Below the pieces are notes generated by a model, which did not search any database, was not told the DNA's origin, and was given only the letters and a program-made list of their open reading frames with translations. A stretch of 64,000 bases of DNA, from positions 1-64,000 of the forward strand of contig NZ_JAGQCU010000013.1 in the NCBI RefSeq assembly GCF_024346355.1, in the 5' to 3' direction. This stretch comes from Cyanobium sp. ATX 6A2 (GTDB lineage: Bacteria; Cyanobacteriota; Cyanobacteriia; PCC-6307; Cyanobiaceae). Below are positions 18-6,817 of the stretch, piece after piece (the stretch's first letter is position 1; each line of letters starts with the position of its first letter). A program made the translations under genes and the position numbers.

Positions 18-1022
18 TTGAAATGGCCGATTCATTGGCCGCTGTATAGCCAAGCGTCTGGGCAGACAACGCGCCGCTCGTTCGCAGTATTTGGATCCAG
101 CCGGCGGATCCCTTTTTCAGGAGTCCCTAATTGGCCCGTGGCTATTCTTGTGGGATCAATCTTGGCTTCTACAGTCGCAGCAGTTGATTCAATAGTTACT
201 GCAAGAACCTTTGATCGCCTACAACCTGCTTACGCACGAAAAGCAATAACCTCTGCGTCAGATCTTCGAAGCAGAATCGAAAGTTTGTCGTCTGAACAAG
301 AAATGATCAGAGAGAGAAATAACATAACCAGAGAAGCCAAGGAGATAGCCAGTGGGCTATCTCAAGATAGACCAGTCCCTCGAGAAGATATCCTAAGGAT
401 GCCAGCCTCAGGATTCATGAAGATTGCTCTTGATGTCAAGTTCCAGAAAGGATGGAGCCTGTTAAACCCGACTCGAGCCAACTTGGCCGTATTGCAGACG
501 TTTATAACGCTTCTCGTTGCATCAATAACATTCATTGTTCTTGTAATGTTGACGCTTGTGGCCCAGGAGAAATCTATAGTTGAATTATCCCCAGCAGTTG
601 AGGCCTTGAAGTGGTCGATAATCTTCTTTGCCATATATCCAATTTGCTATAGGTACTTTCGGGCTGAGATGTTATCTATCAGTGAAACGACATCTACCAT
701 CGGCGGAGACATTCTCTCGACGTTGCTTATTGGCGTCTCGGCCTACTTTGTTCTGGCTATAGATCCCTCAATTCAAGGGCCTATAAGTTTCTTGCACCGC
801 GCATTTCCGTTTCTGGTTGTAATTGGGCCAAGTATTTATTCGAGTCTTGCAGGCCCGTTATCGCTTAGATCTATCATTGGAACAGACTCTAATTTCGGCT
901 CCCGAATCGCATTGGCAATAATAATCTTTTTAGTGGGCATACTGGTTGTTGCCTCGACATGGCCATATCCTAAGGGCCAAAAGACGTGGCAGCGGCAAAA
1001 TAATGCATCTCCAAGGCCGTAG
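18..1022 (+). CDS. Cassette 1: unclassified multi-pass membrane protein
   Basis: I do not recognise a family. The 334-residue product has a hydrophobic segment near residues 41-60, then a charged, probably helical stretch at about 80-115 rich in Glu, Arg and Lys that could be coiled coil, then hydrophobic segments near 160-185, 195-215, 228-250, 262-280 and 300-320. The likely topology is an N-terminal helix, a soluble linker and a C-terminal membrane bundle. The start given is a TTG; the frame is open to the left edge of the window, so the gene may begin further left. The stop codon touches attC site 1, making this the gene of the first visible cassette. It is the most AT-rich gene in the window and its codon use differs from the core. 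Function unknown. Confidence 0.7.
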   Translation: MKWPIHWPLYSQASGQTTRRSFAVFGSSRRIPFSGVPNWPVAILVGSILASTVAAVDSIVTARTFDRLQPAYARKAITSASDLRSRIESLSSEQEMIRERNNITREAKEIASGLSQDRPVPREDILRMPASGFMKIALDVKFQKGWSLLNPTRANLAVLQTFITLLVASITFIVLVMLTLVAQEKSIVELSPAVEALKWSIIFFAIYPICYRYFRAEMLSISETTSTIGGDILSTLLIGVSAYFVLAIDPSIQGPISFLHRAFPFLVVIGPSIYSSLAGPLSLRSIIGTDSNFGSRIALAIIIFLVGILVVASTWPYPKGQKTWQRQNNASPRP

Positions 1023-1106
1023 CCTAACATCAAGATTCAGAAGACGGGAGATTTAGGTAACTGCCAATTCTAAGGTTTTGTCCCGCTTCTGATCTTAGCG
1101 TTAGGC
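1022..1106 (+). other. attC site 1
   Basis: R'' GCCTAAC at 1022-1028 and R' GTTAGGC at 1100-1106 are exact complements. Inner arms 1031-1049 and 1081-1097 pair with a few unpaired bases, which matches the extrahelical bases that orient attC strand recognition. The length is 85 bp. The R'' box overlaps the last base of the cassette 1 stop codon. Confidence 0.92.
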
Positions 1107-1696: not shown

Positions 1697-1773
1697 GCCT
1701 AACCCCTCCATCGAGCGGTGGACCAAAGGTCGCTTTGCGCCCCTTGGTCCACCGCTCATGTCGAACGTTAGGC
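1697..1773 (+). other. attC site 2
   Basis: R'' GCCTAAC at 1697-1703 and R' GTTAGGC at 1767-1773. Arms 1713-1729 and 1742-1757 pair perfectly apart from one extra A in the left arm. The length is 77 bp, the shortest and best-paired site of the array. Confidence 0.93.
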
Positions 1774-2056: not shown

Positions 2057-2145
2057 GCCTAACCACACGCTGGATCAGACGGCGGATAGAATCCAGCGGT
2101 AACACAGAGCCGATGGTCCGCCGCTGATCAGCTTTGCCGTTAGGC
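2057..2145 (+). other. attC site 3
   Basis: R'' GCCTAAC at 2057-2063 and R' GTTAGGC at 2139-2145. Arms 2069-2086 and 2117-2132 are complementary with two unpaired bases. The length is 89 bp. Confidence 0.92.
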
Positions 2146-2197
2146 CTATCAGGTGGATGTCGCGTCTCAGCTGGAGAACTCAGCTATTATGGGACTC

Positions 2198-2398
2198 ATG
2201 AGCACCCTCGAAGAGATTGAGGCTGCAGTTCAGCAGCTGCCGCCGGCCAAGCGGGCCGAGTTCCGGGCTTGGTTCCAGTCGTTCGACGCAACGGACTGGG
2301 ACCAGCAGATGGAGGATGACATAACTGCAGGCAACTTGGAATGGCTAGCCAACGAGGCAATCAGCGACAGCAAGGCTGGTCGATGTTCTGAATTATGA
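2198..2398 (+). CDS. Cassette 4: putative antitoxin of type II toxin-antitoxin pair
   Basis: The small acidic 66-residue protein has an N-terminal helical segment MSTLEEIEAAVQQLPPAKR followed by an aromatic, acidic stretch. This resembles the short antitoxins paired with ParE/RelE-like toxins, in which a Leu-Pro-rich N-terminus precedes a toxin-wrapping tail. An alternative ATG lies three codons upstream at 2189. The stop overlaps the start of the next gene by 4 bp (ATGA), the translational coupling typical of toxin-antitoxin operons. The assignment rests mainly on size, overlap and the toxin-like partner, since no DNA-binding motif is obvious. Confidence 0.72.
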   Translation: MSTLEEIEAAVQQLPPAKRAEFRAWFQSFDATDWDQQMEDDITAGNLEWLANEAISDSKAGRCSEL

Positions 2399-2661
2399 GG
2401 CATCGGGCCAGCCCACGCTTCTGGGCTTGCTATAACTCACTTCCTTCAGAGGTGAAACTCCAGGCTGATCGCTGCTTCGAATTGCTCAAAGCCGAGCCAC
2501 GCCATCCTTCGCTCCATTTCAAGAAGATCGGCAAGTTTTGGTCGGCCAGAGTTGGACTTCGATTCAGAGCTTTAGCTGTTGAAGCAAGCAGCAATGACTT
2601 GATCTGGGTCTGGATTGGTAGTCATGCTGAGTATGATCAATTGCTTCGTTTTAAGGCCTAA
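2395..2661 (+). CDS. Cassette 4: RelE/ParE/HigB-like toxin
   Basis: The 88-residue basic protein shows the RelE/ParE fold pattern: an N-terminal strand with RASPRFWACYNSLP, two helices around QADRCFELLK, then FKKIGKFWSARVGLRFRALAV as the beta-hairpin core and WIGSHAEYDQLL at the C-terminus, where a conserved His/Tyr pair is usual. Such toxins are either ribosome-dependent mRNA interferases or gyrase inhibitors; the sequence does not say which. It overlaps the antitoxin by 4 bp. The stop codon TAA lies inside the R'' box of attC 4, so the cassette is trimmed to its minimum. Confidence 0.85.
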   Translation: MRHRASPRFWACYNSLPSEVKLQADRCFELLKAEPRHPSLHFKKIGKFWSARVGLRFRALAVEASSNDLIWVWIGSHAEYDQLLRFKA

Positions 2662-2744
2662 CATCAAGATGCATCGGTCGGGGAGCCAAGCATGCCTGTT
2701 CAATGCAACGAGCTATCGCCCGCCGCTGATCTTGAGCGTTAGAA
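2656..2744 (+). other. attC site 4
   Basis: R'' GCCTAAC at 2656-2662 overlaps the toxin stop codon. R' GTTAGAA at 2738-2744 departs from consensus at its last base. Arms 2665-2682 and 2719-2734 share the CAAGAT/ATCTTG ends seen in attC 1 and 5. The length is 89 bp. Confidence 0.9.
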
Positions 2745-2775
2745 GGATCAGGGGGAAGCCGGCAGCCACACCGTC

Positions 2776-2804
2776 TTGACGTCAGAACGTCAAAGCGCTA
2801 AGGT
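2776..2804 (+). promoter_or_regulatory. Cassette 5 promoter with palindromic operator
   Basis: TTGACG (2776-2781) and TAAGGT (2799-2804) are separated by 17 bp and fit a sigma-70 promoter. A perfect inverted repeat, TTGACGT-CAGA-ACGTCAA (2776-2793), covers the -35 box and spacer. It lies 18 bp before the antitoxin ATG and is a natural operator for autorepression by the RHH antitoxin encoded next. The promoter assignment is inferred from sequence alone. Confidence 0.6.
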
Positions 2805-2810
2805 CGTGGG

Positions 2811-3041
2811 ATGGATGAAACAAAACGGGCCACGGTCTACTTCGACGCGGATGTACATCGTGCACTGCGCTTAAGAGCTGCTGCATGTAACCGCTCAATA
2901 TCAGACATGGTCAATGAAGCAGTTCGCATGACATTGGCCGACGATGCTGATGATTTGAGAGACGCTGATGAGAGGCAAGATGAGCCAAGCTCTAGCTTCG
3001 AAGAGTTCGTCACAAGCCTAAGAAATAGTGGCCGACTATAG
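2811..3041 (+). CDS. Cassette 5: ribbon-helix-helix antitoxin
   Basis: The 76-residue protein begins with a basic/aromatic strand (KRATVYFDADVHRALRLRAA) and the helix-turn-helix part CNRSISDMVNEAVRM, the classic CopG/Arc ribbon-helix-helix dimer that binds a palindromic operator. The C-terminal half is acidic (DDADDLRDADERQDE) and probably wraps the toxin. It overlaps the downstream toxin start by 14 bp. A perfect palindrome sits 18 bp upstream at 2776-2793, suggesting autoregulation. It is a complete module inside one cassette. Confidence 0.88.
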   Translation: MDETKRATVYFDADVHRALRLRAAACNRSISDMVNEAVRMTLADDADDLRDADERQDEPSSSFEEFVTSLRNSGRL

Positions 3042-3291
3042 CCTCACGATCAAGTCATCAGCCACTAAAGAGCTACAAGCGATTTCAGACAAGGCGACGC
3101 TGACACGATTGATTGAGAAGATCAAACTGCTGGCCACTCAACCGCGCCCATCAAGATCTGAAAAACTCGCGGGAAGACCCAATCTTTATCGTGTCCGCCA
3201 AGGCAACTATCGGGTCATTTACTCCATCGATGACGAGACGCGCGTTGTCGACGTTATTAAGGTTGGCCACAGAAGAGATGTCTATCGATGA
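3028..3291 (+). CDS. Cassette 5: RelE-family mRNA-interferase-like toxin
   Basis: The 87-residue protein starts at a GTG and has the RelE family signature: N-terminal strand YSLTIKSSATKELQ, a helical middle, the motif KLAGRPNLYRVRQGNYRVIYSI, and C-terminal VVDVIKVGHRRDVYR. The L.G....YR.R.G.YRV.Y core and the H-R-R-D-V-Y-R end are diagnostic of RelE/StbE toxins, which cleave mRNA on the ribosome; the Arg and Tyr/His residues there are normally catalytic. It overlaps the RHH antitoxin gene by 14 bp and ends 7 bp before attC 5. Confidence 0.92.
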   Translation: MADYSLTIKSSATKELQAISDKATLTRLIEKIKLLATQPRPSRSEKLAGRPNLYRVRQGNYRVIYSIDDETRVVDVIKVGHRRDVYR

Positions 3292-3298
3292 GTGGACC

Positions 3299-3383
3299 TT
3301 CTAACATCAAGATACAGAAGGCGGGAGTACAGGACGTTGTTGATGCCCGATTCCCTGCCCGCTTCTGATCTTGAGCGTTCGAA
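3299..3383 (+). other. attC site 5
   Basis: R'' TTCTAAC (3299-3305) and R' GTTCGAA (3377-3383). Both boxes depart from consensus, but R'' complements the R' of site 4 (GTTAGAA), which is the correct partner in the circular cassette. Arms 3308-3325 and 3358-3373 pair well and closely resemble attC 1. The length is 85 bp. Confidence 0.88.
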
Positions 3384-3538
3384 GGATCGGTAAGACCGAG
3401 CAGAAATGTCTCGTGGAGGAGGCCGCTGCTGTTGGCACAAGCACACCCTGCAGCCAATTCCGAGCACAGCACGCCAACGATGTTCGTAATACCGCTTGGC
3501 AACTGGTAGGATGACGGGGTAGCGGCGGGGTGCTTGCC

Positions 3539-3796
3539 ATGGCGGTGATCTCACTCAAGTTGACCGAAGCCCTGGATGCGCAGCTCACAGAGCAGGCACA
3601 TCGTCGTCGGCTGAGCAAGTCTGAGCTGGTTCGACGAGCATTGACGGCGTTTCTCCAGTCCTCAGAGCAGGGTGTGGATGGCTCAGCACGACAATCAGCA
3701 GCTGATCTGGTGGCCGATTTGGTGGGATGTTGTGAAGATGGACCAGTAGATCTTTCATTCAACCCTGCATACATGTCTGACTTCGGTAAACACTGA
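3539..3796 (+). CDS. Cassette 6: ribbon-helix-helix antitoxin of PIN toxin
   Basis: The 85-residue protein has a beta-strand start MAVISLKLTEALDAQLTEQA, then RRRLSKSELVRRALTAFLQ, which is the RHH DNA-binding pattern with the S-K-S-E-L-V-R-R-A helix. The C-terminal part ends in DLSFNPAYMSDFGKH, the toxin-binding tail seen in antitoxins of VapC partners. A GTG three codons upstream (3530) is an alternative start. The gene is 2 bp from the PIN-domain toxin gene, so the two form one operon in this cassette. Confidence 0.88.
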   Translation: MAVISLKLTEALDAQLTEQAHRRRLSKSELVRRALTAFLQSSEQGVDGSARQSAADLVADLVGCCEDGPVDLSFNPAYMSDFGKH

Positions 3797-3798
3797 AT

Positions 3799-4206
3799 AT
3801 GGCGGTACTGCTGGATACAGGCCCTTGGGTTGCCCTGTTGAGTCGCAACGATACCCATCATCGATGGGCTCTTGAACAGTTTCAGTCTTTTCAGCCTCCG
3901 TTGCTGAGCTGTGAGGCTGTCGTTGCGGAGACTTGTTTCCTGCTGAAGCGCTCCGGTTTTGATCCTTCCCTGGCGTTGCAGTTGATTGAGCGAGGGGTCG
4001 TTCAATTGCCTTTCGTGCTCCAGGAGCAGATCGGCTCTGTGAGTTCACTCTTCAAGAGGTATGAGAATGTTCCTGCATCTCTAGCTGATGTTGCTTTGAT
4101 TCGGCTTGCGGAGATGAACGATTCACCATTGCTTCTCACTACCGATAGCGACTTCCATATCTACCGCCGCCATGGAAGGCAAACGATTCCTTTGGTCAGC
4201 CCGTAG
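3799..4206 (+). CDS. Cassette 6: PIN-domain (VapC-like) ribonuclease toxin
   Basis: The 135-residue PIN-domain protein opens with VLLDTGPWVALLSRND, containing the first catalytic Asp (residue 6) in the strand after the start. CEAVVAETCFLL supplies the second acidic residue, and LADVALIRLAE plus LLTTDSDFHIYR supply the remaining acidic cluster (Asp in ADVA and in TTDSDF). PIN toxins of toxin-antitoxin modules cleave tRNA, rRNA or mRNA using Mg2+ held by these acids. The partner RHH antitoxin is immediately upstream. After the stop comes about 60 bp and then attC 6. Confidence 0.92.
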   Translation: MAVLLDTGPWVALLSRNDTHHRWALEQFQSFQPPLLSCEAVVAETCFLLKRSGFDPSLALQLIERGVVQLPFVLQEQIGSVSSLFKRYENVPASLADVALIRLAEMNDSPLLLTTDSDFHIYRRHGRQTIPLVSP

Positions 4207-4267
4207 TTGCCATGGATCCTCCAGTAGATGCGAAGGTCTCCTGACGTTGCCTATGGAGAAGCGACAC

Positions 4268-4359
4268 TTCGAACACATCCCTCAAGTGAACAGGCCACCA
4301 CCAGCTCTTTGCTGCGCCACCGCAGGTTTCATGCCTGCCACTCAGAGGCAGCGTTAGGA
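4268..4359 (+). other. attC site 6 (distal end of array)
   Basis: R'' TTCGAAC (4268-4274) is the exact complement of the R' of site 5 (GTTCGAA), the pairing expected within cassette 6. R' here is GTTAGGA (4353-4359). Arms 4280-4294 and 4334-4348 pair in three blocks (CCTC/GAGG, AGTG/CACT, CAGG/CCTG) with unpaired bases between. The length is 92 bp. The R' box overlaps the stop codon of the following minus-strand gene. Confidence 0.78.
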
Positions 4360-5976
4360 GTTGAACCACGGCAGTTTCAGGCCAAGGGCTTCGATTGGAT
4401 CCATCACGAGCTTGTTGAGAGCACGGCCTAGAACCACTTGTGGCTCGTCTGCCCGAATGGGCAGAATGGGATGCGAGTGATCCGCACCGTTGACAATCTT
4501 GCGCCTGATCAGGGAGTTCCCTGCCTCCAGCCCGCACACATAGGCCCGTTCCTGACACAGTGCCTTGGCTCCATGTTCTTTGTCGCCCATCCGCACCCAG
4601 TCACCAGCACAGACGATCGACTCCACTGAGGTTTCCAAGGGTGGCCGTTTTCTGAAACTGCACGGAGAAAAGAGCGACACCGAGCCTGGATAGCGCCGCA
4701 CCTCGGAATCAACCACCCTGGCATTGGTGAATTCCGGATGAGCGATGGGAAGCAGGTCATGCGTGAGCCGATCAATGATCTCTTGATCGCTCATCGCTGC
4801 GATGGCCGATGCGTTGTAAAAGTCGCTGGCGACCACCGAGCCCTGGGGCCGCTCATCACCCCAGAGAGCCTGTTGCGCATCTTGGTGCAGCTGATCCAGC
4901 ATGAAAAAAGTGCCCCCAGCGCCCTTCAGTGATTCGAAGCGGGAGAACACGTTGGCCGGGTAAGCGATTGGAACATAACGATCCAGCCATAGACGTGCTG
5001 ACACCACATCGATGGCACCAAGCGAAGCAGCGCAAACAAGCTCTGGTGCTGCCTTGCTGAGTTCTGGAGATTGAGCCATCAGAGCCTTGAGCCCTTTGAC
5101 ACCAACGGCCAGGACCACAGCATCCACATCGTCAATCACCTGAACTGTTTGGGTGGCCACGTTCTTAAGCTCAACCGAGCTGACGCGCTGCGAGTCAGAT
5201 GACATCGTCACCCGTTTCACCAACGTTCCCCCAAGGACCTGCAGATGATGACGGGAAATCAGCCTTCGGCTCAGAGGTGCAAACAGATGTTCCGCGATGC
5301 TTTTCGACTTGATCCAACGGACATCAAATGAGTCTTGGTGGGCCAGGGCGTAGTAATAGAGGAGCTCCATGGTGACCGCAGCCGAAAGCTCTTCGGGCGG
5401 CTTGAACAAGCCAACAAGCAAGGTGGGGCGCAAGAACTCATTGATGAGTCGCTCGCTGATGCCGAGCTTGACAAAGAGTGATTGCGCGTCGAGATCGTCG
5501 TACTGCTGGAATATCTTGTCGCTGCGATAGAGGTCAAGAATCGCATAGAGAAGCCCTGCGATGCTGAGCCGGTCTTGAATGGGTAGTCGTGTGAAGTTGG
5601 TGATTGTTGCCACCATCTGGCCAAGGGGGCTTGGCCATTGGGGTGATTCTCCAAAGACGGGCGCTGTTGCTTCTAGCCCATCGGGCGACCAGAAGGCACT
5701 GGATGTGAAGTCAGTGAAGATATCGCCAACGCCGAGTTCATCGGTGAGCGCGTTGATATTGGGATAGTCTTTCCAAAAACCTCTGGTGCCTGCCTCGAAA
5801 GGTTTGCCGCTTTTGGTTGTGATTGGTGTTCTGCCTGTTGGATCGGGCATCCCATCAATCAAAGTGACACGAATACCGGCTTCACAGAGTGACTTGGCTG
5901 CGCCCCAACCTGCCCATCCGGCTCCGATGACGACTGCATGGGATCGTCTTCCGCCGGGCATGGTCGCGTCTGGCAT
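4354..5976 (-). CDS. FAD-dependent amine-oxidase / phytoene-desaturase-like oxidoreductase
   Basis: The 540-residue protein has an N-terminal Rossmann dinucleotide motif VVIGAGWAGWGAAKSL followed by the acidic strand end VTLIDG. The C-terminal FAD-contact segment is IVCAGDWVRMGDKEHGAKAL, followed by a helix carrying A-Y-V-C-G-L-E-A-G. This arrangement fits the NAD(P)-binding_8/amine-oxidase family that includes carotenoid desaturases. The substrate cannot be read from sequence; carotenoid or isoprenoid oxidation is likely by family. An alternative Met lies at residue 6. Its GC content is clearly lower than that of the core genes to the right, and its stop codon sits exactly on the crossover point of attC 6, so it is probably part of the accessory island rather than the core. 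Confidence 0.82.
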   Translation of the reverse strand: MPDATMPGGRRSHAVVIGAGWAGWGAAKSLCEAGIRVTLIDGMPDPTGRTPITTKSGKPFEAGTRGFWKDYPNINALTDELGVGDIFTDFTSSAFWSPDGLEATAPVFGESPQWPSPLGQMVATITNFTRLPIQDRLSIAGLLYAILDLYRSDKIFQQYDDLDAQSLFVKLGISERLINEFLRPTLLVGLFKPPEELSAAVTMELLYYYALAHQDSFDVRWIKSKSIAEHLFAPLSRRLISRHHLQVLGGTLVKRVTMSSDSQRVSSVELKNVATQTVQVIDDVDAVVLAVGVKGLKALMAQSPELSKAAPELVCAASLGAIDVVSARLWLDRYVPIAYPANVFSRFESLKGAGGTFFMLDQLHQDAQQALWGDERPQGSVVASDFYNASAIAAMSDQEIIDRLTHDLLPIAHPEFTNARVVDSEVRRYPGSVSLFSPCSFRKRPPLETSVESIVCAGDWVRMGDKEHGAKALCQERAYVCGLEAGNSLIRRKIVNGADHSHPILPIRADEPQVVLGRALNKLVMDPIEALGLKLPWFNS

Positions 5977-6229
5977 GGCTGCTACGAACGTCGGCTCATC
6001 TCCCGCAAGTCCTGGTATGTCCCTGATCGCGGGGGCTTGGTTTGGCTTGAATTCACAGCGCTGACAGGCCGCGAGCAGGTTGGAAGCATCCCTACGTTAA
6101 AGCCAGGCTGATGGAGCGAGCTTCTTCTGAAGTTCTGCTGATGGTTACAGCAAGGATCCTTCCTCTGCTTGGCCCTGATCGTGCTGCCACTCCTTGACCC
6201 GGCCATACACCTGACCCGCCGCCCAGGAT

Positions 6230-6817
6230 TCACAACCCTGCATCCAGCAGCTCCCGCAGCTGCGGCGCCAGCAGGGCAAAGGCCTGGCCCCGGTGGCCGA
6301 TGCGGCCCTTGAGAGCCTTGTCCATCTCGGCGTAGGTGAGCCCTGCCTCGGGCACGAAGAACACCGGGTCGTAGCCGAAGCCGCCTGTGCCGCGTTGCTC
6401 CTCAAGGATTTCGCCCGGGCAGATGCCCTCCACCTCGAGGCGGATGGTGCCGCTGGGATCGGCCACCGCCAGGGCGGCGGTGAACCGGGCCGAGCGGTCG
6501 CCGGCGCCGTCCAGCTCCCGCAGCAGCCGGGCGATGCGCTCGGGGTCGCTGGGGCCATAGCGGGCTGAATGCACGCCGGGGGTGCCGCCCAGGGCGGTCA
6601 CGCTCAGGCCGGAGTCGTCGGCCAGGGCCCAGCAGCCGCTGGCGCGGGCCACGGCCGACGCCTTGAGCCGGGCGTTCTCGGCGAAGGTGTCGCCCGTTTC
6701 CTCCACCTCCAGGCCCTCTGGCTGGGGGCGGATCTGCAACTGCAACCCGGCCAGCATGTGGCCGAATTCGCGCACCTTGCCGGCATTGCCGCTGGCGATC
6801 ACCAACAAGGAACTCAT
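6230..6817 (-). CDS. rdgB: XTP/dITP diphosphatase (RdgB/HAM1 family)
   Basis: It hydrolyses non-canonical purine triphosphates (XTP, ITP, dITP) to monophosphates, keeping them out of DNA and RNA. The 195-residue length is usual. The family start SGNAGKVREF (residues 9-18) binds the triphosphate. TFAENARLKA, ADDSGLSV with the catalytic Asp pair, GTPGVHSARY, and the C-terminal GFGYDPVFF and FALL segments follow in the expected order. It lies 5 bp downstream of the phosphohexomutase gene on the same strand and is probably co-transcribed. It marks the return to high-GC core genome. Confidence 0.95.
   Translation of the reverse strand: MSSLLVIASGNAGKVREFGHMLAGLQLQIRPQPEGLEVEETGDTFAENARLKASAVARASGCWALADDSGLSVTALGGTPGVHSARYGPSDPERIARLLRELDGAGDRSARFTAALAVADPSGTIRLEVEGICPGEILEEQRGTGGFGYDPVFFVPEAGLTYAEMDKALKGRIGHRGQAFALLAPQLRELLDAGL

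Follow-up and report, generated by a model that had tools for sequence, protein, structure and literature searches.

A flavoprotein gene as the probable last, reversed unit of a split chromosomal integron in Cyanobium sp. ATX 6A2, abutting the array at its own stop codon

The origin of integron cassettes from ordinary genes is a long-standing question. We analysed 64,000 nucleotides of the Cyanobium sp. ATX 6A2 genome (G000; contig NZ_JAGQCU010000013.1, positions 1 to 64,000; hereafter the window), in which an array of integron cassettes ends against the stop codon of a reversed oxidoreductase gene, ox. On balance, we favour the reading that ox is the last unit of a chromosomal integron, lying in reverse and joined to the array by the integrase IntI at an attG-like site at its native stop codon. 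A native and apparently horizontally spreading chromosomal gene would thus have become the terminal integron unit in this lineage; IntI would have recombined at CG|TTAGGAG, a native, attG-like sequence overlapping the ox stop, and the unit's own attC, beyond the ox start, would have lost its L'-R' half against rdgB. Use of the native CG|TTAGGAG would explain why the unit opens with the reverse complement of the last ox codons and why the last complete attC (attC 6) abuts the stop, and the loss of the L'-R' half probably leaves the unit immobile and fixed in place. The argument draws on features read directly from sequence: the native allele of ox, the G|TT junction (resolved to four shared bases), an array split by an insertion sequence (IS), its location in the rdgB-ccd interval, and half an attC beyond ox. 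The novelty is modest; what makes the locus interesting is that a chromosomal gene may here have turned into a cassette. The features concerned are as follows.

1-127, strand not applicable: IS end with an inverted repeat at 112-127; it cuts cassette 2 and is followed by the TAATTG target duplication at 128-133.
1022-1106, plus strand: attC 1, crossover 1100/1101.
1697-1773, plus strand: attC 2, crossover 1767/1768.
2057-2145, plus strand: attC 3, crossover 2139/2140.
2656-2744, plus strand: attC 4, crossover 2738/2739.
3299-3383, plus strand: attC 5, crossover 3377/3378.
3378-4353, plus strand: last complete cassette, with an RHH frame (3530-3796) and a PIN frame (3799-4206), VapBC-like by Pfam RHH_1 and PIN.
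4268-4359, plus strand: attC 6, crossover 4353/4354, directly behind the ox stop.
4354-5976, minus strand: ox, a 540-aa FAD-dependent oxidoreductase (Pfam PF01593), reversed relative to the cassettes.
5977-6010, minus strand: ox 5' flank, alignable with cassette-free homologues as far as -34.
6191-6224, plus strand: half attC (R''-L'' side, CACCTGA type), adjoining the end of rdgB and recognised by an arm match.
6230-6817, minus strand: rdgB, Ham1 family (Pfam PF01725), the chromosomal flank of the integron.

At the joint the plus strand reads GCAGCG|TTAGGAG. The attC 6 crossover falls at 4353/4354 and the minus-strand stop of ox, TAA, is the complement of 4354-4356, so the coincidence of crossover and stop codon from which the preliminary description had set out is confirmed at both positions. 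Like a cassette, the ox unit starts at the G|TT crossover of the preceding attC. In all five complete cassettes of the window, R'' matches the start of its own cassette at 8 of 8 positions. Among them, the R'' of attC 6 (CTTCGAAC) matches, 8 of 8, the TTCGAAG start that follows the crossover at 3377/3378, and differs at two of eight positions from the TTAGGAG behind its own crossover; TTAGGAG is therefore not DNA of the last complete cassette and, by the own-start rule, would belong to the next unit. Scored with a covariance model trained on 22 local attC sites, attC 6 reaches 63 bits, a value that is not independent because attC 6 is itself among the 22. Independent support comes from the presence of its subfamily at other loci and from a relative, G008, in which the equivalent position holds a site of this type. 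The stability of its DNA hairpin was dropped as evidence, as this was no greater than that of shuffled sequences on either strand (z of -0.5 and -0.7; about -4.6 each for attC 1 and attC 5).

For homologues of ox we searched 149 relatives, 142 of which gave some match, 42 loci of named genomes, assigned to our genome labels by contig position, and 400 family genomes drawn from a larger group, of which 88 matched at 1e-120. Eleven homologues have a complete ox 3' end at roughly 90% identity or more: G035, G178, G264 (WH 5701), G265, G201 (Cyanobium usitatum), G217 (CS-1331), G294, G309 (Cyanobium FGCU6), G346, G009 and G008, the last at about 90% (89.6% by tblastn); the count excludes G073 and G274, where ox is truncated, G012, whose contig ends inside ox, and homologues below about 90%. 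All but one end in LPWFNS* (G217 ends in FKS*). G008 has an attC at the ox stop, and the other ten have no cassette there. Seven of these ten read CTCCTAACG at the end of ox, which is CG|TTAGGAG on the other strand (CGTTAGGAG), and two differ from this common site by one base (G217, CGTTAGGAC; G009, CGCTAGGAG); in one array-free relative the native site reads CACTCGTTAGGAGTTG. The tenth, G264, carries an IS of about 1.36 kb at the ox stop (L081, from 11620), exactly where the window has its array junction, with the native flank resuming beyond it. Past the stop the cassette-free homologues share a flank that is not cassette DNA (CGAGTGCTGGACTGA...) and in which no attC was matched; G009 retains about 21 bp of it. 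The cassette-free allele carries the G|TT core expected of an attG target.

Judged by these alignments, the ox stop and C-terminus are native. The suggestion that cassette DNA had supplied them falls away, as cassette-free homologues end in identical residues followed by GTTAGGAG. The comparison of C-termini and the search for an empty site that had been proposed as a check were carried out, and the empty allele was found in those homologues; it upholds insertion of the array exactly at the gene end as far as the junction itself is concerned, and for the unit as a whole the account of ox as a reversed passenger, taken up below, serves better. Two further readings of this flank were set aside. 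A short frame beside ox in G035, ending QSSTR*, was considered as a conserved convergent gene, and the corresponding G009 frame shares only its last residues; the native ox flank was considered as an attI, and its likeness to the attI motif is weak by eye. When the G035 3' flank was used as a query, its ox-adjacent part had no match elsewhere in the G000 genome, and its parts 13-60 and 89-181 matched contigs C45 and C42.

Compared with the cassette-free homologues, the identity of both G000 and G008 stops at +5 after the last sense codon, two bases past the crossover. Because the native allele and the cassette both carry CGTT at the joint, the breakpoint is resolved only to these four bases, and a break within CGTT matches the prediction of G|TT recombination; from this we infer that IntI made the junction. 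The same four bases would equally serve a chance or illegitimate event in which a deletion ended at the cassette edge and at the native GTT, perhaps via the shared CGTT, since four shared bases are enough for a short-homology deletion. However, among about 1 kb of cassette positions the joint falls on the crossover, and in the native allele it falls on G|TT, and we regard such an accident as the least probable account of the junction, to be given very little weight.

The window begins at base 1 of its contig, C5. A second contig, C7, carries a complete intI (1502-2434; 459 bits against a family cut-off of 265), followed by an attI-like motif and a first cassette, and adjoins ccd, a gene of the RPE65/carotenoid-oxygenase family. 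Both contigs begin in an IS end with an identical 16-nt repeat (GGGACTCCTGAAAAAG), each bordering TAATTG, the 6-bp target duplication, and a 392-aa frame runs across the flanks when they are joined with one copy of TAATTG. The IS interior is absent from the assembly at this point, and the gap presumably contains only the IS. On this sequence evidence the window and C7 are two halves of one integron, in the order ccd, intI, attI-like site, cassettes, ox (reversed), rdgB, and the VapBC-like cassette would be the seventh from the attI-like site, provided that the gap contains the IS alone. The IS (1-133 of the window and of L049, the C7 locus) interrupts a membrane-protein gene of cassette 2 and splits the assembly there. 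The attI-like motif (GGACCCGTCCATTCAGC|GTTAG) lies some 160-180 bp behind the intI stop and has close relatives at the G012, G073 and second G009 intI loci. An intI and array in the same direction, with an attI-like motif 160-180 bp behind the intI stop, were seen here (L049, 1-2500) and in several related genomes.

The position of this integron in the chromosome can be read from relatives. We fetched ten rdgB loci, of which the one from G017 is too short to show the interval between rdgB and ccd. The two genes are directly adjacent in five of the ten (G011, G010, G009, G002 and G005) and separated by about 0.7 to 4 kb of other sequence in G004, G006, G030 and G035. In G000, the neighbour of intI on C7 is ccd, and that of ox in the window is rdgB. 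The same two sides recur in G008, with rdgB, ox and the attC on its contig C7, and intI pieces, a similar spacer (78.5% identical to that of G000 over 735 bp) and ccd on its contig C44. As the interval is closed in half of the fetched relatives, intI, array and ox together lie inside it. The G006 interval (L072, 5600-6400) contains a decayed integron, with an attC of 23.7 bits, a PemK/MazF-family frame and, by eye, an attI-like motif, and G006 has no match to ox; as only about 0.13 kb separates the motif from ccd, intI is apparently missing there.

On its far side, the ox unit is closed not by a complete attC of its own but by an R''-L'' half, and we do not file ox as a complete gene cassette because that attC is incomplete. 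A full-model search with filters off found no complete attC between ox and rdgB in either genome (no candidate above 7.7 bits in G000 or above 2.3 bits in G008). Positions 6202-6220 (GCCATACACCTGACCCGCC) match the L'' arm of one local attC type at 17 of 19 bases, the best match in the window; G008 has the arm at the same place (16 of 19), and the rdgB-ccd locus of G011 has none within three mismatches. Over the entire half (6191-6224), 23, 24, 23 and 18 of 34 bases are identical to four references, values reached by 0, 0, 0 and 185 of 2000 shuffles, respectively. The R'' of the half (CTCCTTGAC) is two edits from the one predicted for a TTAGGAG start (CTCCTAAC), which 41 of 1024 random words equal; in G008 the distance is three edits (30 of 1024 words are as close), and both distances together are reached by 9 of 1024. 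If only words with the common YTAAC ending are considered, 19 of 128 are as close to the prediction as that of G000, which weakens the match, so the likeness of this R'' to the start of the ox unit is suggestive only.

With half an attC on its far side, ox takes the end position in the integron, as a unit lying in reverse. Of the accounts put forward at the outset, a reversed passenger without a distal attC therefore fits best, since ox lies between attC 6 and the half attC in an rdgB-ccd interval that is closed in relatives; the reversed orientation and the place inside the integron stand, and the distal attC turns out to be truncated (6191-6224) and not lacking. Counting against our favoured reading, the half attC could be the remainder of a different cassette that has since exchanged its body; a decayed attC with this arm ends a MazF-like cassette in G006, where ox is absent.

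Two histories would lead to ox as the last unit, and the sequence does not decide between capture of ox as a new cassette and deletion of its flank by recombination of an attC with the attG-like site. For the first, which belongs to our favoured reading, we infer that ox entered as a cassette circle. A fuller version of this history starts from a chromosomal ox gene whose stop codon carried G|TT and which had an attC 5' of it; IntI would have cut this gene out in circular form, and the circle would have joined the rdgB-ccd integron at its attI. G035 has such a layout, with an attC (54 bits, outside the training set of the model) 146 bp upstream of the ox start and its R' directed away from ox. 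We consider this full course of events unlikely and put it forward tentatively. If it were true, the donor-like layout, the empty allele and the product could all be read in living relatives. As it is, three forms of ox are open to base-by-base comparison, namely the allele free of cassettes, that of a relative with a neighbouring attC, and the one bound to the array; because the unit edge falls on a stop codon, the capture of a gene with an intact reading frame becomes directly testable.

Arrays near ox in other genomes bear on the second history. In SynAce01, ox is followed by about 241 bp of flank largely common with the array-free locus L092 and then by an array, with ten attCs in the stretch read and intI 17 kb away; in G002, an attC lies 95 bp behind ox, followed by an array and an intI remnant; and in G009 an attC lies 379 bp behind ox, followed by an array and intI. 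With offsets of about 95, 241 and 379 bp, adjacency of an array to ox does not need the stop-codon site. Thus ox may have stood, with its native flank, near the distal end of an array, and the flank may then have been deleted when IntI joined an attC further up the array to the G|TT of the ox stop, in which case ox was never a free cassette. A single IntI event suffices for this, ox stands at the far end of the array from intI or its remnant in SynAce01, G002 and G009, with other sequence between, and G009 keeps its 21 bp of native flank. It leaves unexplained, however, why in both G000 and G008 the attC half next to rdgB has ox on its integron side, and we hold it to be possible, if on the unlikely side.

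The recurrent order of intI (or its remnant), array and ox in G000, G008, G009, G002 and SynAce01 would also be expected if the attI of a founding integron had abutted the ox stop and all cassettes had been inserted between the two. This we think very improbable: in cassette-free homologues the native sequence behind the stop shows only a weak likeness to the attIs of these loci, ox is followed by half an attC, the intI genes at the ox loci of G000 and G009 are only 73.6% identical with attI-like sites of different type, and the integron remnant of G006 occupies the rdgB-ccd interval without ox.

More broadly, 21 genomes have a complete ox at 77% or more. Of the 18 taken for this count, six carry an attC no further than 3 kb from ox; for the remaining three (G418, G391 and G203, equated with L090, L091 and L092), the ox locus examined has no attC. 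With 274 attCs in 54.9 Mb, assumed to be unclustered, the chance probability is 4e-5, or 3e-4 with G000 and G008 counted as one, genome sizes being rounded and nearness to ox being taken from searches of individual ox loci. These values are a guide only, because the genomes are related and array-bearing copies could share one origin: a single, weakly supported branch of the ox tree (60/88) may have all of them on one side, and the six cases are therefore not independent. The fetched ox stretches of G178, G264, G265, G274 and G217 contain no attC at E 0.5 or better, and 5' of ox no attC arms were found at the threshold used in 6 of 15 genomes, including G009 and G002. About 69 bp upstream of array-free ox genes at another locus (L081 from WH 5701, L083, L084, L116 and L157), we observed a block resembling the R'-side half of an AAGAT-type attC, with 4-5 mismatches in 22; the genomes with this block include FGCU6 and G178, it is missing from G265 and CS-1331, and it was left out of the argument.

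The ox product belongs to the amino-oxidase superfamily of flavoproteins and is closest to HpnE and phytoene desaturase, far under the cut-offs of those families (91 bits against NCBIfam HpnE, cut-off 283). Its dN/dS of 0.14-0.20 between G000 and five homologues is as expected of a gene kept functional. Between G000 and G035, ox DNA is 0.938 identical, far above the ccd region (0.78) and the rdgB protein (75%), which points to apparent horizontal spread of ox. No match to ox was found in the plasmid collection. A second copy of ox, about 80% identical, is present in pieces in G000 (L057 on C32, 118-1404; L058 on C30, 5504-5923), both near contig ends.

This locus shares with sedentary chromosomal integrons an intI over the family cut-off, an attI-like motif found at more than one locus and attCs that match their own cassette starts. 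Here, however, the array lies 3' of intI and in the same direction, whereas intI and array are divergent in most integrons known. Cassettes with reversed genes or without an attC occur at array ends, and ox resembles them in running antiparallel to the array with an incomplete attC; unlike them, the edge of its unit is its own stop codon and a cassette-free allele is known. Loot et al. 2024 (doi 10.1038/s41564-023-01548-y) is reportedly the primary paper on attG sites. The ox joint resembles such sites in falling at G|TT in otherwise ordinary chromosomal sequence, but here the chromosomal side is the last integron unit and the site overlaps a stop codon. Two articles treat attG sites as places of cassette insertion into genomes outside attI (PMC12901181, PMC12444791). 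Cyanobacterial attCs were used in a published classifier (PMC8352920), and the supplementary legends of an older intI study name a Synechococcus intI (PMC3108266). Among the papers listed for integrons together with Synechococcus, Cyanobacteria or picocyanobacteria, no title concerned this locus.

Three consecutive cassettes of the window (2153-4206) carry toxin-antitoxin-like pairs, namely a ParE-like one, RHH with ParE/RelE, and RHH with PIN. The G000 genome has 25 attC matches all told, and its contigs C1, C3, C12, C34, C42 and C45 hold more attC clusters and intI pieces.
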